A DNA stretch of 64,000 nucleotides from Methanomicrobium antiquum (GTDB lineage: Archaea; Halobacteriota; Methanomicrobia; Methanomicrobiales; Methanomicrobiaceae), in assembly GCF_029633915.1 (NCBI RefSeq), contig NZ_CP091092.1, positions 1,054,001-1,118,000 of the forward strand, in the 5' to 3' direction. Below the pieces are notes generated by a model that saw only the letters and a list, made by a program, of their open reading frames with translations, was not told where the DNA came from and searched no databases. The position numbers were made by a program, and so were the translations under genes. Below, piece by piece: positions 7,136 to 62,642 of this stretch. How positions within the stretch are numbered: position 1 is the first letter of the stretch; every line of letters begins with the position of its first letter.

Positions 7136-8965
7136 ATGTTGCCACAGGATGAAAAAGCTTCTTCTTTTAAAAAGATGATGCTTCTCGGTATAGTTGTTGG
7201 AATAATATCCGGTGTTGGAGCACTTCTCTTCTTTTGGGGACTGGAATATGGCACCCGTTTTGTGATGGATATTCTAATAGGCTATAATTATCCTGTTGAG
7301 GGACAATCAATAGAGAGCATTTCAAATTGGTCTCCTCCTCCTTTTATCTGGCTTATTCTTCCGGTAATATGTACAGGAGCTTTTTTATCAGGTCTTCTGG
7401 TTTATAAATTTGCACCGGAAGCAGAAGGGCATGGTACAGATGCGGCAATAGAAGCATTTCATGGCGATGGCAAAATCAGATGGAGAGTTCCTGTAATAAA
7501 GGCAATAGCTTCAATTCTTACAATTTCAACAGGAGGAAGTGCCGGAAGAGAAGGACCGACTGCACAAATATCAGCCGGATTTGGGTCTATAGCTGCGGAT
7601 GCTTTAAAATTATCCCCCAGAGAAAGAAGGATAGCTCTTGCTACAGGTATAGGAGCAGGTATTGGAACAATATTCAAAGCACCTCTTGGAGGAGCTATTC
7701 TTGCGGCAGAAATATTATATACCTGAGATTTTGAAGCAGATGTCGTTATGCCATCTTTTTTGGCATCAATAATAGGATATTCAATATTTGGATTTTTTGA
7801 GGGTTATAATCCAATATTTGGAACAGCAGATATTACATGGGAAATTGTTCAGATACCATTATTTTTATTATTGGGCGTTTCTTCTGCATTTGTTGGTCTT
7901 TTGTATATTAAATCATTTTATGGAGCAAGAAAAATTTTTTCAGACTTTTTTGAGAAAAATAATTTACCTAAATACCTAAAGCCTGTTTCAGGAGCATTTT
8001 TTATAGCAATCTTTGTTTTGATTTTAGCTCACCTGTCTCCTTATACAATGTTAGCAGCGCTTGGAAGTCTTGGAACAGGTTATGGTTTTATTCAACTTGC
8101 CATATATAATATGCTTCCACTAACAGTTCTTATAATACTTCCTTTTGCCAAAATTCTCACTACATCTCTTACAATAGGTTCTGGAGGAAGCGGTGGTGTT
8201 TTTGCACCCGGACTTGCAATAGGAGGAGCCGCCGGAGGTGCATTAGGGATGATTTTGCATAATCTGATTCCAAATTTTGTTCCTTTGGCATCTGTTCCTG
8301 CATTTGTTATAGTTGGGATGATTGCCCTGTTTGGAGGAATTGCAAATGCTCCAATATCTGTTATGATAATGGTAGTGGAGATGACGAGCGATTTTTCACT
8401 TCTGGTCCCGGCAATGGGTGCAGTTGCAGTATCCTGTCTTATCACCGGAGAAAACACTATCTTTAGAAAACAGGTTAAAACAAAAGCTCAGTCTTCTGCC
8501 CACAGAGGAGAATATCAGATTGAGATACTTGAGGAAATAACCGCAGGAAGTGCGATGAAAAAATTCAGTGACTTAATTTATTTAAGTCCAAAAGATCCCT
8601 GTCAAATTGTATTTTCTACAATTGACAGAACAAGACACACCGGTTTTCCTGTGATTGATAATGGTCAGCTTGTAGGCATAGTAACACACAGGGACATACA
8701 ACCACATAAAGAGGATAATCTTTTAATCAGTGATATAATGAATACCTCGGTTTATACATTAAATACAGACTCAAATCTTGAAGAAGCGCTCTCTATTATG
8801 ATAGAAAACGAGATTCACCATATACCTGTTGTTGATAACAATGATCCAAAAATTCTATTAGGATTTATAACATCTACAGACATCATGCGTTCATATACAA
8901 AGAAAATGACACTTGATTATAAATCTGTTAGTAATAAATATTTAAAAGAAAATTTGAAATTTTAA
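7136..8965 (+). pseudogene. ClC-type chloride channel/antiporter with C-terminal CBS pair, split by an in-frame TGA
   Basis: The two reading segments (7136-7726 and from 7727 onward) are in the same frame and together make one ClC protein of about 609 residues. The first part carries the conserved STGGSAGREGPTAQIS selectivity signature. The second has GSGGSGGVFAPGLAIGGAAG, then two CBS domains (about residues 460-590). The break is TGA at 7724-7726 in LGGAILAAEILYT-stop-DFEADVVMPSF, where ClC proteins normally have Arg (LYRRDFE type). A single CGA or AGA to TGA change explains it. Intact ClC proteins exchange Cl- and H+ or conduct Cl- across the membrane. The downstream part could restart at ATG 7748, but each half lacks part of the pore. 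A sequencing error cannot be excluded. Confidence 0.85.
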
Positions 8966-9052
8966 GCATTATTTTTTAGACTTTTTTGATATATTGCATA
9001 ATTTCTAATTGTACAGATTTTTTATGCGGATAATGACTAGTTATATAGATAT

Positions 9053-9493
9053 ATGGTAAAGACAGCCGGAGTTAAAAAAGGAGATATTGTATCAATTCAT
9101 TTTACAAGCAGGACTCTGGAAGGAGAATTATTTGAGACATCAAAAAACGAAGAGCCACTAAAAATTAAGATCGGAGACGGAAAAATTAATCCGGCATTTG
9201 AAGAGGCTCTCACAGGAATGACTGTTGGTGAAAAAACAGAAATAATTCTTCCTGCTGAAAAAGCATATGGTGAATACAAAAAGCGTCTTATATTTAAGAT
9301 GAGAAAATCCGGACTGAATCTCTTGTGTGATCCAAATCCCGGAGACATTGTGTCAATAAAACTTCCAACAGGACAAAAATCTCTTGTCAGTGTAGTAGAA
9401 ATTACTAAAAAATCAATAAAGGTTGATGCAAATCATCCAATGGCAGGAAAAGACTTGAAATATGAACTTGAGCTTTTGGAGATTCAGGAATAA
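9053..9493 (+). CDS. FKBP-type peptidyl-prolyl isomerase, SlyD-like
   Basis: The 146-residue protein starts with an FKBP half-domain (GDIVSIHFTSRTLEGELFETS, then GKINPAFEEALTGMTVGEKTEI and PAEKAYGEY). An inserted flap domain follows, ending in LKYELELLEI, the typical last FKBP strand. The family catalyses cis-trans isomerisation of prolyl bonds and acts as a chaperone in the cytoplasm. Archaeal short FKBPs are 140-160 residues, so it is full length. It lacks the His-rich metal-binding tail of bacterial SlyD. It is monocistronic, between the broken channel gene and the convergent uvrB. Confidence 0.85.
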   Translation: MVKTAGVKKGDIVSIHFTSRTLEGELFETSKNEEPLKIKIGDGKINPAFEEALTGMTVGEKTEIILPAEKAYGEYKKRLIFKMRKSGLNLLCDPNPGDIVSIKLPTGQKSLVSVVEITKKSIKVDANHPMAGKDLKYELELLEIQE

Positions 9494-9616
9494 CAAATTT
9501 CATGTATATAAAAAACATATAGTTGTAAATTTCAGCATAAAAATGTTAAAATCAGAATAGAATGCCTGATAAGACATTTTCATATGATAAAATTAAAATC
9601 AATTCAAGGAAATTAA

Positions 9617-11557
9617 TCAGAGACTACTACCAGCCCTTATCTTTTTTATCTGGTCTCTTAATTTAATCGCCCTTTCAAATTCAAGTGAATTAGCTGCCAT
9701 CTGCATCTCTGATTCAAGTTCAATTAAAAGATTTGGGATCTCTTTTTTTGGCAGGTGTTTTATGTCTGTAAGATCTGCCTCTTTTTCTTTTATTGGTTTA
9801 ATAATTGTTTTTGGATGTATTCCGTGTTTTTTATTGAATTCTATTTGTATCTCACGTCGTCTTTTTGTCTCAGCAATGGCTGATTTCATCGAATCAGTCA
9901 TATTATCGGCATATAAAACCACATAGGATTCTGCATTTCTTGCTGCCCTGCCGATAATCTGAATGAGACTTTTTGCATCCCGCAAAAATCCTTCCTTGTC
10001 TGCATCAAGTATCCCAATAAAACCAACTTCAGGAATATCAAGACCTTCTCTTAAAAGATTGATTCCGACAAGACAGTCAAATTTGCCTAGGCGAAGTTGT
10101 CTTATAATCTCTGTCCTTTCTATTGTTTCAATATCTGAATGGAGGTATCTTGTTTTGATATTTTTTTCAGCTAAAAATTCCGTTAACTCCTCAGCAAGTT
10201 TCTTTGTCAGAGTAGTAATTAAAACACGGTTTTTATTTTTGATTGTCTTTTTTATCTCATTTAAAACATCCTGAGTCTGCCCTTCAACAGGACGTACGAA
10301 AACTTCTGGATCTACAAGGCCTGTGGGACGAATTATTTGCTCAACAAAGCTTTCTGAATGTTCTTTTTCATAAATGCCAGGTGTTGCAGAGACAAATATT
10401 ACATTATGCATATATTCTTCAAATTCCTCAAAGACAAGGGGGCGGTTATCAAATGCAGAAGGCAATCTGAATCCAAAATTGACAAGCGGCTCTTTTCTTG
10501 AACGATCACCATTATACATGCCTCTGACCTGAGGAAGAGTCTGATGACTTTCATCAACGACAAGCAAAAAATCATCAGGGAAATAATCCAGAAGACAAAA
10601 GGGCTTTTCACCTTTTTTCCGGTGATCAAAAAAACGTGAATAGTTTTCAATTCCCTTGCATGAACCTGTCTCCTCTATCATTTCAATATCAAAAAGAGTC
10701 CTTTGACGAAGTCTGTGTGCCTCAAATGGTCCAAGTTCTTTTAATCTTTCCTCAAGCTCTGTTTTTATCTTTGCTATTGCATCTGTTTTGTCATCATCTG
10801 GAATTACATAATGTCTTGCCGGATAAACAAAGAAATAATCCTTAGATTCGATTTTTTCTCCTGTAAGCTTATCAATCTCCAGAATTTTTTCTATTTCATC
10901 ACCAAAAGTTTCAATGCGGATTATGTTGTTAAAATATCCCGGGATGAAATCAATAGTATCTCCTTTTACCCGGAATCTTCCAGGCATTAGTTCAAGATCA
11001 TTTCTCTCGAATAAAATATCCACAAGATTTTTCAAAATATCGGTTCTTTTGATTTTCTCGCCGACATTAATCTCAAAGCCCATATTTTCAAAATTTTCAG
11101 GGTTTCCAAGACCATATATTGCTGAAACAGACGCCACAACAATAACATCTTCTCTTGAGAGAAGAGAGGCTGTTGCAGAAAGTCGCATCTGTTCAATTTT
11201 AGGATTAATCTGGGCATCTTTTTCAATATACTGATCTTTTGAAGGAATATATGATTCAGGCTGATAGTAATCATAGTATGATACAAAATATTCAACCCGG
11301 TTATTTGGAAAAAAGTCTTTAAATTCATTATAAAGCTGTGCGGCAAGTGTTTTATTATGCGCGAGAACAAGTGTGGGTTTTTGAGTGTTCTGAATTACAT
11401 TTGCGATTGTAAAAGTCTTTCCCGAGCCTGTAACTCCCAAAAGAGTCTGAGATTTATAGCCTTTATTAAAGCCATCGGTTAATTTTTTTATTGCATCCGG
11501 TTGTGAACCTTTAGGTTTAAAGTCACTTACAAGATCAAATCCGGTAATATTTTGCAT
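9617..11557 (-). CDS. uvrB: Excinuclease ABC subunit B
   Basis: UvrB is the helicase-like damage-verification subunit of nucleotide excision repair. Visible motifs are the P-loop GVTGSGKT near residue 40, the YYDYYQPE beta-hairpin region near 95, the DEXH-like box VVDESHQT, the C-terminal helicase block QIIGRAARN, and a terminal UVR domain ([24 protein letters not shown]) that contacts UvrC. At 646 residues it is complete. It is the last gene of the uvrA-uvrC-uvrB series, with a 115-bp gap from uvrC. Methanogens are thought to have acquired the Uvr system from bacteria. Confidence 0.97.
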
Positions 11558-59177: not shown

Positions 59178-59797
59178 TAATAATCTGTGATCTTTCATAT
59201 AAATCTGAGTCTTTATCATTCTTTGAATATGTAAAGCCGATTGAAGAGATTATAAAAAAAACCGAAATGTCCTTTAAAACAGTTCACTACAGTGAACTTG
59301 AAAAAAAATCTGAATCAAGTAATAATAGTGAAGAATATAGTGGTTTGCAAAATTTTCTTCTTAAAAAAGCCACAGGAATAATCCTCTGCGGTACTGCTCT
59401 CAAAGATAATGAATTTTTGAAAAAAACAGAAATTTTCCAATTTTTAAAATATACTGAAATCCCTGTTCTTGGAATCTGCGCAGGTTTTCAGGTTATTGCA
59501 AAATTATTTGGCGGAAATATTATAGAGAACAAAAAAATTGGTATGACAACTGTAAAAACAATTTCAGACTCTCCTGTTTTAAGGGGTATGGATAAATTTG
59601 AGGCATATGAACTTCATAAAAATTCCTTTGAACTGCCTGCTGATTTTTTAATTCTTGCAGAGTCCGATACAGATATACAGGTGATAAAACACAGATACAA
59701 ACTGATATTTGGCGTAATTTTCCACCCGGAAGTTCGAAACGAAAGAGTTGTTGAAAATTTTTTAGGAATAATCAGAGGAACCTGTAAGTCTGTTTAA
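59174..59797 (+). CDS. Class I glutamine amidotransferase domain protein
   Basis: The 207-residue protein has the GATase I triad region: nucleophile Cys in PVLGICAGFQVIAKLFGG, and His-Glu in FGVIFHPEVRNERV. It resembles the glutamine-hydrolysing subunit of archaeal GMP synthase (GuaA A subunit) but is longer at the N terminus and lacks a synthetase domain. Such domains release ammonia from glutamine for a partner enzyme. Its start overlaps dph6 by 4 bp (ATGA), so it may feed Dph6; a GMP synthase partner elsewhere is the alternative. Its last 36 bp overlap the end of the convergent kinase gene. Confidence 0.8.
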   Translation: MIIICDLSYKSESLSFFEYVKPIEEIIKKTEMSFKTVHYSELEKKSESSNNSEEYSGLQNFLLKKATGIILCGTALKDNEFLKKTEIFQFLKYTEIPVLGICAGFQVIAKLFGGNIIENKKIGMTTVKTISDSPVLRGMDKFEAYELHKNSFELPADFLILAESDTDIQVIKHRYKLIFGVIFHPEVRNERVVENFLGIIRGTCKSV

Positions 59798-61453
59798 GTC
59801 ATCAAGAAACTCTTCAAGGCACCTGTATCTTTCATCAGGATCTTTTTTAAGACATCTCATTATCAGTTTGTCAAATTTTTTTGCATCAGAATTAACTGTA
59901 GAAGGCAACTTTGGATCATTGTGAATTATTGATGTTGAAAACTCACCAATACCATCGCCTGAGAATGGAAGATGACCAGTTAAAAGCTCATAAAAGACAA
60001 TTCCTATCTGAAAAATATCAGTTCGTTGATCGCTTCTTCCAAAAATTCCCGGTGCTACCTGTTCCGGAGAGGCATAGTTTAGAGAAAACGCAAGCGTCTT
60101 TGTCTCGTTGGTATCGCTTATTATCTTTCCAAGACCCCAGTCTGAGAGTTTGGGAGTTTTATCTTTACAAATTAGAATGTTCTGAGGTTTTATGTCGCGA
60201 TGGATTACTCCTCTGCAGTGAGCATACAAAAGTCCATTTGATATCTCTTTTATATAATATGCAGAAAGCTCAGGTGATACCGGCTTATTTATATCTGCAA
60301 GAGATTTTTCACAATATTCCATCTCAACATAAGGAACGGGGAGGATATTCACAGAATATACCTTTACAATGTTTTTGTGTTCAAGTTCTTTCCAAAGATT
60401 CATTTCCTTTAGAAAACTTCTGCCAGTCCTTTCATCAAAGCTGATTGGGACTTTTACAGCCACAACTTTACCGTCTTCACGTCTTTTAGCCTTAAAAATT
60501 CTTGCAGTGCCCCCTTTTCCAATATATTCTGAATCCATATAGCGTTCAGACAGATCAGGATGCAGGCAGTTGATTTTTTTTGCCTGCATAATTAGAGCTT
60601 TACCGTCATCACTAAAAGGCAAAGTGTTTTTCCCGGAATCTGTCTCTGAATCTTCATATAAATTTTCTGTTCCAGATTTGATTCTTGTATATGTTTTTCT
60701 TCTTTTAAGCATCATCAGGTGCATCAGCGGAATGGAAATTAAGATGGATGAAAATACTGCCGATATTAAAATTCCTGTCAGCATATCAGAAGATGAAGAA
60801 TATCTGCCTAAATCTGATATTGAAAAAAGAAAAAGAATAAAAGGTGCGGCAATCTCAAATCCAAGTATAAAAATAAACGCTCTTTTTATTACAATAGAAT
60901 ATGCAAGCCAGAGTGATGACATTGCGTATATAAAAAGAATTGTCGCAAATAAAAGTGATGACAAGGTATCCTGGGATGATATATCACTGGCATTTCCAAT
61001 AACTGCAATTGAAAAAAGAGAGACCAGCACAAGCAAAATTCCCATCACTGAGTAAGTCGGAATCAAAATTACACGCAAATAAAACCTTTCAAGGTAATAA
61101 TAAAGACCGGAATATTTTCTTCCTGTAATGCTTAAAGATATGAGTACCAAACCAGACACACATAATATAAAGAGAAGAATGATATTCGAGCTGAAGTTCC
61201 TCATATAATCTTTATATTCATCAGGAGATGCCAAATCAGGCAATATATCATTAGAAGCACTTATTATAGCTGAATTCTCTGAATTTTCTAAAATGTCTTT
61301 TGAATTTTGTGAAAAATCTTTTAAATTATCTGCCTGTGAGTCAGGAATATGTAAAGATTCATAAACAGATATATTTGCGGCATTTGCAGGTATAACCAGA
61401 GCAGGTGCTAAAACAGCTATAATAAAAAGATAAATTAGATATTTTCTGACCAA
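59762..61453 (-). CDS. Membrane-bound Ser/Thr protein kinase
   Basis: The 563-residue protein has an N-terminal signal-like helix (LIYLFIIAVLAPALVIPANAA), an extracytoplasmic segment of about 60 residues, and about five membrane helices between residues 90 and 250. The C-terminal part is a Hanks-type kinase domain (about 295-555): IGKGGTARIFKAKR, VVAVKV, the catalytic loop GVIHRDIKPQNIL, the metal loop LSDWGLGK (DWG rather than DFG), and NYASPEQVA. It lacks PASTA or other sensory repeats. An FHA-HTH gene is next on the same strand, a likely partner for phospho-Thr recognition. The stimulus is unknown. Confidence 0.87.
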   Translation of the reverse strand: MVRKYLIYLFIIAVLAPALVIPANAANISVYESLHIPDSQADNLKDFSQNSKDILENSENSAIISASNDILPDLASPDEYKDYMRNFSSNIILLFILCVSGLVLISLSITGRKYSGLYYYLERFYLRVILIPTYSVMGILLVLVSLFSIAVIGNASDISSQDTLSSLLFATILFIYAMSSLWLAYSIVIKRAFIFILGFEIAAPFILFLFSISDLGRYSSSSDMLTGILISAVFSSILISIPLMHLMMLKRRKTYTRIKSGTENLYEDSETDSGKNTLPFSDDGKALIMQAKKINCLHPDLSERYMDSEYIGKGGTARIFKAKRREDGKVVAVKVPISFDERTGRSFLKEMNLWKELEHKNIVKVYSVNILPVPYVEMEYCEKSLADINKPVSPELSAYYIKEISNGLLYAHCRGVIHRDIKPQNILICKDKTPKLSDWGLGKIISDTNETKTLAFSLNYASPEQVAPGIFGRSDQRTDIFQIGIVFYELLTGHLPFSGDGIGEFSTSIIHNDPKLPSTVNSDAKKFDKLIMRCLKKDPDERYRCLEEFLDDLNRLTGSSDYS

Positions 61454-61868
61454 CAGCCTGCATCTCCGGTAGATTATTTATTCCATTATTTTTATGTACT
61501 GGATAATTAATAATGATTTCAAATTAAATTTTGATGTTTATTTTTTAATTAATTTTTTAAAATCAATACCTGTTGAAAAAAATTCAGGAAATTGATAAAA
61601 ACAAAAAATAAAAAATGAAAATAAAAATTAAACATGATAAAAATGAAAAAAAAGAAAAAATTGAAATAAAACAGAACAGATTAAAAACTGGACGTTAATT
61701 AAAAAGAAAATTGAAAAGAATTGAAGAGATTTTTTAAAAAAACATTCATGAAACTAAGGTTTCATGCACCAGTTTCATGTAAATCAAAAAGTGATTTTCA
61801 TGGTAAATGAAAAAAAGTCTGATATTCACTATCCTGTTCCAACTTTTTTTTAAAGTTCCTTTAATCCT
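61454..61868. other. Intergenic region between kinase and FHA genes
   Basis: This 415-bp AT-rich gap contains a palindromic repeat (61743-61806) and an A-rich tract (61600-61740) with no reading frame. The kinase promoter should lie at its left edge. Confidence 0.5.
61743..61806 (+). repeat. Modular palindromic repeat, divergent modules 1 and 2
   Basis: Module 1 is CATGAAACTAAGGTTTCATG (61747-61766), and module 2 has arms AAATCA and TGATTT (61776-61802) instead of AAGTTAC/GTAACTT. In both modules the changes occur on both arms, so the hairpins survive sequence divergence. It lies about 60 bp 3' of the FHA gene stop. Confidence 0.8.
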
Positions 61869-62642
61869 TTAGGGAAATGAAACAAGAAGTTTTCCTGCCC
61901 TTGTTCCGCGTGAAAGTTCAATTACATCTCCGTCTGTTATTTTGTACCTTATTCCCTTCTCAAGAAGTACCCCGTTTAGAAAAGTCCCGCCAGTACTTTT
62001 TATGTCTTCAATATACCAGTCGTTTCCTTCATCGTAAAAATAGCAGTGAGGTTTTGTAATCCTTGATACAGCTCCATAAAATTCCGGGAAAACAATATCT
62101 CCCTCTTCAGGAACATAGGTATGGTCATTGTCATTTCTTCCAACACGAATTTTTTTGTGATTTAAAAGGTAAGCGGTTTCGTCATGTGGTCCGCCGACAA
62201 TAAACACAACAGGAATATCTCCTTTTATCTCATCAGAGATCTGAGCTTTGAGATTTTTTATTCTGTCTGCAAGGATTTCATTGTCAGGAGTCAGATTAAC
62301 ATCATTGAATATCTGAAGATTTTTAAAGACTGCTTCAAGTCCTCCAGGCATTATTGAATATTTCCAGACAGGATGGACACCTTTTGTTTTTCTGCTGCTT
62401 ATTCCGGTTTCTTTTTTAATAACTCCGGCAAGGTGAAGCTTTTGAATATGTTTTTTTGTATTTTCATAGCTTATGCCAATCTCATAGGAGATTTCACGAA
62501 CATCTTTTTGATTTTTTTCAATACATTTCAATATCTTAAGTCTTGCCGGATTGGACAAAACATCAAGATAATCGGATAATTCTTCGAGAAAATCATCATC
62601 ATTTTCAATAAATATTGTTCCTTTGGCTTCTTCCTGAGACAT
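61869..62642 (-). CDS. FHA-domain protein with N-terminal winged helix
   Basis: The 257-residue protein has an ArsR-like winged helix at residues 20-85 (LSDYLDVLSNPARLKILKCIEKNQKDVREISYEIGISYENTKKHIQKLHLAGVI). A C-terminal FHA domain at about 160-250 shows IRVGRNDNDH, the conserved SRITKPHCYFY-type block, and STGGTFLNG. FHA domains bind phosphothreonine peptides, so this looks like a transcription regulator controlled by Ser/Thr phosphorylation. The membrane kinase gene lies immediately downstream on the same strand (415 bp). This kinase-FHA-HTH arrangement suggests a direct phospho-signalling pair. Confidence 0.88.
   Translation of the reverse strand: MSQEEAKGTIFIENDDDFLEELSDYLDVLSNPARLKILKCIEKNQKDVREISYEIGISYENTKKHIQKLHLAGVIKKETGISSRKTKGVHPVWKYSIMPGGLEAVFKNLQIFNDVNLTPDNEILADRIKNLKAQISDEIKGDIPVVFIVGGPHDETAYLLNHKKIRVGRNDNDHTYVPEEGDIVFPEFYGAVSRITKPHCYFYDEGNDWYIEDIKSTGGTFLNGVLLEKGIRYKITDGDVIELSRGTRAGKLLVSFP

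Follow-up and report, generated by a model that had tools for sequence, protein, structure and literature searches.

Locus and domain architecture

Two genes lie side by side on the minus strand of the window, a 64,000-nucleotide stretch of the Methanomicrobium antiquum genome: a gene for an FHA-HTH regulator and, following it, the gene for a Hanks-type membrane Ser/Thr kinase. This agrees with a preliminary description of the sequence, and the coordinates, taken from the open reading frames of the window, are collected in Table 1. The gap of 415 bp is among the larger ones of the family, and the two genes may be transcribed separately; in several relatives they overlap by 4 nt.

Table 1. Features of the FHA-HTH/kinase locus (positions in the window)
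Feature	Position	Strand	Basis
FHA-HTH regulator gene, 257 aa, first of the pair	61869..62642	-	ORF; Pfam HTH_5 and FHA; upstream of the kinase in 128/130
Thr9 codon, proposed phosphoacceptor, N-terminal tail	62616..62618	-	Thr in 135/135 unique relatives
ArsR-type winged HTH, residues 31-77	62412..62552	-	PF01022 (HTH_5), E 3.1e-6
SYENTKKH motif, near-invariant, residues 58-65, probable DNA-recognition helix	62448..62471	-	132-136/136 per position
FHA domain, residues 165-243, with R169, S/T196, H199, N223	61914..62150	-	PF00498, E 8.8e-12
AT-rich intergenic region, 415 bp, carrying one copy of a repeat dispersed through the genome	61454..61868	.	
Kinase ribosome-binding site GGAG	61464-61467	-	precedes the TTG start codon
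Membrane Ser/Thr kinase gene, 563 aa, TTG start, second of the pair	59762..61453	-	ORF; Pkinase, E 4.3e-46
Predicted signal peptide of the kinase, hydrophobic residues 5-23	61385..61441	-	hydropathy; model helix 2-23
Five predicted membrane helices, residues 91-243	60725..61183	-	hydropathy; five long model helices
Kinase domain, residues 305-545	59819..60541	-	PF00069 (Pkinase), E 4.3e-46
DWG motif, residues 438-440	60134..60142	-	DWG in 127/127 readable paired kinases
Activation-loop T-x-T, residues 451-453, candidate autophosphorylation/FHA docking site	60095..60103	-	putative role

The regulator carries an HTH_5 domain (PF01022, 27.4 bits; cut-off 22), and the model for the metalloregulator ArsR/SmtB subfamily (NF033788) gave 31.6 bits, below its cut-off of 55. 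Within the HTH, the SYENTKKH motif falls where the structure model has a helix (residues 59-72), which by analogy with the ArsR fold is probably the one that recognizes DNA. The FHA domain, scoring above the PF00498 cut-off, conserves among relatives its phosphate-binding residues R169, S/T196, H199 and N223, and also G168. A Foldseek search with the model returned GarA, OdhI and EmbR, the top FHA match being GarA in the PknB-GarA complex 6i2p. Pfam found neither an OmpR-type HTH nor a BTA domain, which sets the protein outside the EmbR/SARP family, and its N-terminus is the ArsR-type HTH and not the zinc ribbon of ArnA.

Six hydrophobic segments are present in the kinase, starting at residues 5, 91, 135, 166, 192 and 225, and its AlphaFold model has one short N-terminal helix and five long ones. 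The five membrane helices originally described are thus borne out if the first segment is a signal peptide. Confidence in the models is moderate (pLDDT 75.6 for the regulator and 78.2 for the kinase), and the tail of the regulator is not bound in them. The domain hit and residues identify a Hanks-type, PknB-like enzyme with intact catalytic residues: K334, E350, H418-R419-D420, the metal-binding D438-W439-G440 and an APE-type loop. Its closest solved relatives are PknB, and the top match is PknB in complex 6i2p; the score against the curated PASTA-kinase equivalog was 187 bits (cut-off 450). Among relatives the kinase domain is conserved and the N-terminus varies as a sensor might (short, NosD beta-helix or PEGA).

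The replacement of DFG by DWG, also noted from the outset, is a signature of the paired kinase family and not a lesion. Because it is universal in the readable members, DWG was discarded as a mark of inactivity; the few readable kinases outside Methanomicrobiales have DFG or DLG. In protein kinase CK2 the same substitution makes the DFG-out state unfavourable and accompanies constitutive activity (PMC9608649). The sequence and fold of the paired kinase are PknB-like and not CK2-like, and its DWG must have arisen independently.

Conservation and co-divergence of the pair

Among 199 Methanomicrobiales genomes, relatives of the FHA-HTH protein are present in 139 and of the kinase in 141; elsewhere in the phylum, matches reached the HTH only. 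The kinase gene lies directly downstream on the same strand in 128 of the 130 unique FHA-HTH relatives with enough flanking sequence, an arrangement too constant to be due to chance, and among the neighbouring matches listed, 114 of 115 share strand and order. Flanking regions carry a kinase beside nearly all FHA-HTH genes, so orphan copies were dismissed. The preliminary description had asked whether the gene pair is conserved and would have been weakened by a lack of conservation; these counts contradict such a lack.

The two proteins also diverge together. Their distances correlate at 0.78 over 56 pairs, and cross-genome partner assignments are concordant in 56/56. Genomes hold up to four pairs, each with its own partner, and for 27 paralogous pairs from 11 genomes the correlation is 0.73 versus a mean of 0.20 when partners are shuffled within genomes, with none of 5,000 shuffles matching the observed value. 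Cognate pairs are thus co-located and co-diverging, as the logic of two-component systems would have it. It is very probable that the regulator and the kinase are functional partners.

Only a PP2C phosphatase gene and a CARDB/ABC/MacB-type exporter cassette recur as neighbours of the pair. The phosphatase gene directly precedes 14 unique pairs in the same orientation. One of these is the sister pair in the source genome, where only two PP2C genes are present in all; no such gene adjoins the pair in the window. Most other neighbours reflect clade synteny, and a regulon drawn from neighbouring genes was therefore set aside.

A conserved threonine in the regulator tail

The position of Thr9 is never occupied by Ser, which is consistent with the recognition of phosphothreonine (pThr) by FHA domains. 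Its flanks are variable (entropy of 2.2-3.3 bits for the preceding residues and 1.7-3.2 bits for residues 10-16), with hydrophobic residues at +1 and +3 in 111/135 sequences. Residues 1-14 are predicted to be disordered in the structure model, and in the second FHA-HTH copy of L201, Thr9 is kept although the HTH lacks SYENTKKH. The distance from Thr9 to the first HTH helix is 13 residues in 134/135 sequences, and this constant spacing could mean that Thr9 is kept for a structural reason. The protein shares with OdhI and GarA a conserved Thr in a predicted disordered N-terminal tail combined with an FHA domain, making Thr9 a putative phosphosite.

On the kinase side, one activation-loop position is Thr or Ser in 83% of 128 loops and Thr in 51%. 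With a loop Thr that varies among the kinases and a T-x-x-hydrophobic motif confined to 34/128 loops, docking of the FHA domain at this site is uncertain.

Search for a DNA operator

Between the two genes, at about 61745-61790, lies the palindrome ATGAAAC-N4-GTTTCAT. Its core, TGAAAC-N4-GTTTCA, occurs at 108 places per strand in the genome versus 6 for a control, and a related 21-mer occurs at 112 places over both strands versus 0. As a member of a dispersed repeat, the palindrome was rejected as specific evidence for an operator. A different dyad, TTGAACC-N4-GGTTCAA, which was picked out after inspecting the sequences, is found at 11 or more of 14 positions in 27/116 regions upstream of FHA-HTH genes versus 12/323 control regions, about 90-135 bp from the gene. 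It occurs mostly in one family, is absent from the lineage of the window and, with at most one mismatch, occurs 0-2 times in each of 10 genomes. It is a weak lead toward an operator that might be common across Methanomicrobiales. A fixed-width motif scan was uninformative, since nearly all seeds outscored their shuffled controls.

Proposed mechanism and alternatives

In the mechanism proposed here, the N-terminal part of the kinase would sense something extracellular or in the membrane, and the kinase would phosphorylate Thr9 in the flexible tail of the regulator. The FHA domain would first help the regulator to dock on the autophosphorylated kinase and would then bind pThr9, either in the same protein or in a dimer partner, as in OdhI/GarA. 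This binding would rearrange the protein and alter how its ArsR-type winged HTH binds DNA, with a PP2C phosphatase returning the system to its starting state. The sequences show the gene pairing, the co-divergence of the partners, the intact catalytic and pThr-binding residues, the invariant Thr in a tail predicted to be disordered and the PP2C genes beside sister pairs. Every step of phosphorylation and docking is inferred, as are the role of Thr9 as phosphosite, an altered DNA binding and the direction in which it changes, the targets on the DNA and the stimulus. Phosphorylation of the regulator by the kinase is likely, and the complete Thr9-FHA switch is somewhat favoured.

Alternatively, the FHA domain could dock on the phosphorylated kinase and hold the regulator at the membrane, with its release controlling DNA binding and Thr9 being structural. 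A precedent for FHA docking on an autophosphorylated kinase exists in PknG and OdhI/GarA (PMC8546545), the constant spacing of Thr9 would suit such a role, and all of the pairing evidence fits equally well. Yet a structural Thr should sometimes be Ser or Val, which is not seen in any of the 135 sequences; in addition, the tail is predicted to be disordered, and Thr9 persists in a copy whose HTH is degenerate. Retention at the membrane is unlikely.

It is rather doubtful, too, that the kinase is a hub with many substrates, the FHA-HTH protein among them, as with mycobacterial STPKs, instead of forming an insulated line. Pleiotropy is usual among bacterial eSTKs, PknA, PknB and PknH all phosphorylate EmbR (PMC4601284), and there are few strong Hanks kinases per genome; but the partners co-divide and co-diverge within genomes, where up to four pairs keep their own partners as insulated lines should. 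That the genes are neighbours through operon history only, with no joint function, is highly improbable. The 415 bp between the window genes would fit this, as would the conservation of other neighbours within clades; between clades, however, those neighbours change while the pair persists in 128/130, and the paralogues co-diverge.

Comparison with known systems

In Mycobacterium tuberculosis, the membrane Hanks kinase PknH phosphorylates EmbR in an interaction that requires the FHA domain of EmbR, and PknA/PknB and the phosphatase MstP play a part as well (PMC4601284). The pair described here likewise joins a membrane Hanks kinase to a regulator with N-terminal DNA-binding and C-terminal FHA domains. 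It differs in having an archaeal host, a DWG kinase, an ArsR-type HTH with no BTA domain (EmbR has an OmpR-type HTH plus BTA) and an invariant N-terminal Thr. In OdhI/GarA of Actinobacteria, PknG/PknB phosphorylates a Thr in the disordered N-terminal tail, and the FHA domain is a docking site switched by the intramolecular pThr (PMC8546545). The likeness lies in an FHA protein with a Thr in a predicted disordered tail and in 6i2p being the top structural match of both proteins. In contrast, OdhI/GarA bind metabolic enzymes and lack a DNA-binding domain, and their tail motif is ETTS instead of T-hydrophobic-x-hydrophobic.

The Arn network of Sulfolobus (ArnA, ArnB, ArnC and ArnD), in the portions of the literature consulted, also uses an archaeal FHA protein with eukaryote-like kinases to control transcription (PMC6509490, PMC13286277). 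As described there, ArnA has a zinc ribbon and no HTH, its partner is the vWA protein ArnB, and those portions describe no dedicated pair of this design with an adjacent membrane kinase.

The preliminary description had suggested a membrane-to-DNA phospho-relay with two-component logic. A dedicated pair is well supported by adjacency and co-divergence; the term phospho-relay was wrong, since Pfam and NCBIfam find no histidine kinase, HATPase, receiver or His/Asp phosphotransfer domain in either protein, and the prediction is for a phosphorylated Thr that an FHA domain recognizes. The resemblance to bacterial and archaeal two-component systems, which do not use Ser/Thr chemistry and pThr reading, is one of logic only. 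Given its near-universal adjacency in Methanomicrobiales carriers and its evolution as partners, the pair is probably an undescribed eukaryote-style counterpart of the bacterial systems.

Archaeal links from eukaryote-like kinases to transcription are poorly known, and most examples in the literature searched come from Sulfolobus. The compact system described here extends across a whole methanogen order with the kinase, the reader, a probable phosphosite and sometimes a phosphatase genetically linked, so that two small proteins and a single point mutant would allow a direct test of kinase-to-DNA signalling in a methanogen. If the proposed reading is true, two-component systems are not the only origin of the cognate-pair design, which arose once more on the basis of Ser/Thr chemistry. 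There is perhaps an even chance that such pairs are a signalling currency of Methanomicrobiales, with several insulated pairs per genome, swappable sensors, a shared PP2C and a single tail pThr toggling DNA binding; the near-invariant recognition helix would then imply a common DNA site. Such pairs would have evolved independently as a Ser/Thr equivalent of two-component systems.

Conservation and co-divergence of the pair

The genome of Methanomicrobium antiquum (G000), a single contig of 2.44 Mb that is 99.7% complete, holds two kinase/regulator pairs, with the sister pair at 71.8–75.2 kb. In the window, the preliminary description had placed a membrane Ser/Thr kinase beside an FHA-HTH protein, and both open reading frames are found on the minus strand. 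Behind a signal peptide, the kinase is predicted from sequence and a structure model to have ~65 residues lying outside, then five membrane helices and a kinase domain resembling that of PknB. In the regulator, a tail predicted to be disordered (residues 1–14) precedes an ArsR-type winged HTH, which is joined to an FHA domain by a linker of weak prediction.

A genome search placed the regulator in 139 of the 199 genomes of the order Methanomicrobiales and the kinase in 141 of 199. Among the 148 regulator matches listed, 115 have a listed kinase match ≤6 kb away, which is downstream and on the same strand in 114 of the 115. The gene pair is conserved: in fetched regions, the kinase lies directly downstream of 128 of 139 unique regulators, some pairs overlapping by 4 nt. 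The remaining 11 comprise nine truncated by a contig end and two exceptions: a regulator followed by a PP2C phosphatase gene (locus L201) and one convergent with its kinase (L113). When 393 genomes of the phylum were searched with a profile, full-length regulator matches of at least ~150 bits came from inside the order and none from outside it, where the best (~41 bits) covered the HTH only. In addition, a scan of 84,980 species returned 131 relatives, the 80 listed being, by name, methanogens of this order or loosely labelled MAGs; one of the 80 listed is labelled Thermoplasmata, on a 4.7-kb contig. In the order and phylum searches, one genus (g4) lacks the regulator, and so do most genomes of one family (f6).

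Distance matrices of regulators and kinase domains correlate at 0.78 (56 pairs), and at 0.73 for paralogous pairs only (27 in 11 genomes). Shuffling partners within genomes lowers the mean to 0.20, with 0 of 5,000 trials reaching 0.73, and cross-genome partner assignments are concordant in 56 of 56. These comparisons indicate that each pair is duplicated, and then diverges, as one unit. The proposed two-protein membrane-to-DNA pairing is thereby strengthened by adjacency and co-divergence; the term "phospho-relay", which accompanied it, should be dropped.

The invariant Thr9 and the DWG motif

FHA domains bind phosphothreonine, not phosphoserine. When the 139 unique regulators were aligned, position 9 was Thr in all 135 covering the tail and never Ser, the other four being fragments. 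Residues 1–8, which precede it, have entropies of 2.2–3.3 bits, and hydrophobic residues occupy +1 and +3 in 111 of 135. Thr9 lies 13 residues from the first HTH helix in 134 of 135, and because of this fixed distance a structural reason for its conservation is possible. A second regulator copy at L201 has lost SYENTKKH, the near-invariant motif of the probable recognition helix, and has kept Thr9; the two L201 regulators are natural variants useful for testing the Thr9 model.

In OdhI/GarA, tail phosphorylation by kinases, with the FHA domain acting as docking site, leads to an intramolecular switch (PMC8546545). The regulator likewise carries a single invariant Thr within a tail predicted to be disordered, together with an FHA domain. 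The kinase and regulator models have as their top structural matches PknB and GarA, respectively, in one and the same complex (6i2p).

The DWG noted in place of DFG in the window kinase proved universal in the readable paired kinases (127/127). DFG or DLG is found in five readable kinases from outside the order, and DFG in a further kinase from within it. Because two kinases of a genome without a detected regulator also carry DWG, the motif characterises a clade of kinases that extends beyond the pairs. DWG kinases of ~920 aa at L236 (G006) and L237 (G001) lack an FHA-HTH partner and adjoin a PP2C gene; one has PEGA domains. The DWG of CK2 makes the inactive DFG-out state unfavourable (PMC9608649), so by analogy the paired kinases are likely active; their control may be exerted through docking or dimerisation.

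Inputs, phosphatase and candidate outputs

The kinase N-terminus is variable: not counting the signal peptide, about half of the kinases contain a single membrane helix and the other half four to five. Ectodomains are short or 220–380 aa, and NosD beta-helix or PEGA domains occur in some. A PP2C gene lies directly upstream of 14 unique pairs, including the sister pair. Apart from the pairs, G000 has a row of genes resembling a vWA-phosphatase-kinase triad.

Coordinates of the features (window positions unless a locus is named)
Feature	Location	Strand	Remark
FHA-HTH regulator gene	61869-62642	-	ORF in window
Kinase gene	59762-61453	-	ORF, 415 bp downstream of FHA-HTH gene
PP2C gene of sister pair	L066:9486-10190 (C1 75.6-76.1 kb)	-	Pfam
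Regulator then PP2C, and second regulator	L201:5001-6566 and 8936-10774		Nearby second regulator: degenerate HTH, tail Thr and own kinase kept
vWA protein, PP2C, divergent kinase	L238:6092-9737 (G000 C1 771-775 kb)	-	In a row
CARDB/ABC/MacB-FtsX cassette beside pair	L070:5041-8149		Also L077, L078, L101, L122, L222, L229, L241, L242
Dispersed repeat TTTCATGTAAGTTACGAAGTAA	17634, 26734, 46811, 48781, 49679, 62794, 62846

An exporter-type cassette (CARDB secreted protein, ABC ATPase, MacB/FtsX permease) adjoins 9 of 124 unique pairs on the same strand, six times upstream and three times downstream; it is complete in eight, the L078 permease not being called. One adjoins the G007 pair, a syntenic relative of the window pair. 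None lies beside the window pair itself, and other copies occur elsewhere in each genome. In Methanoregulaceae loci (e.g. L105, L155, L235), a position-conserved dyad, TTGAACC-N4-GGTTCAA, with further half-sites, lies ~90–135 bp upstream of FHA-HTH genes (27 of 116 upstream regions versus 12 of 323 controls) and is a possible autoregulatory site in this one family. The cassette and dyad autoregulation are leads to outputs. The near-invariant recognition helix predicts one DNA site common to the regulators.

Copies of a short MITE- or REP-like repeat, TTTCATGTAAGTTACGAAGTAA, flank the FHA-HTH gene, with seven in the window against 0 expected and 112 places in the genome (≤1 mismatch) against 0 for the control.

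Relation to known systems and proposed mechanism

The pair would work like PknH-EmbR with an OdhI-type tail switch added. The regulator is not a member of the EmbR group, lacking the OmpR-type HTH and BTA domain, nor of the ArnA group, lacking the zinc ribbon. The suggested analogy with two-component systems holds insofar as cognate pairs duplicate and co-diverge, but with neither histidine kinase nor receiver the pair falls outside them. No description of the pair was found in the open-access papers searched; it may be reported elsewhere, and automatic annotation of each single gene surely exists.

The sequences show the gene pairing, the co-divergence, intact catalytic and phosphothreonine-binding residues and the invariant Thr. 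In the mechanism proposed, the kinase would sense a signal and act on Thr9, the FHA domain would bind pThr9 in cis or within a dimer, DNA binding would be altered and PP2C would reset the switch. Our guess is that the regulator acts as a repressor until phosphorylation releases it.
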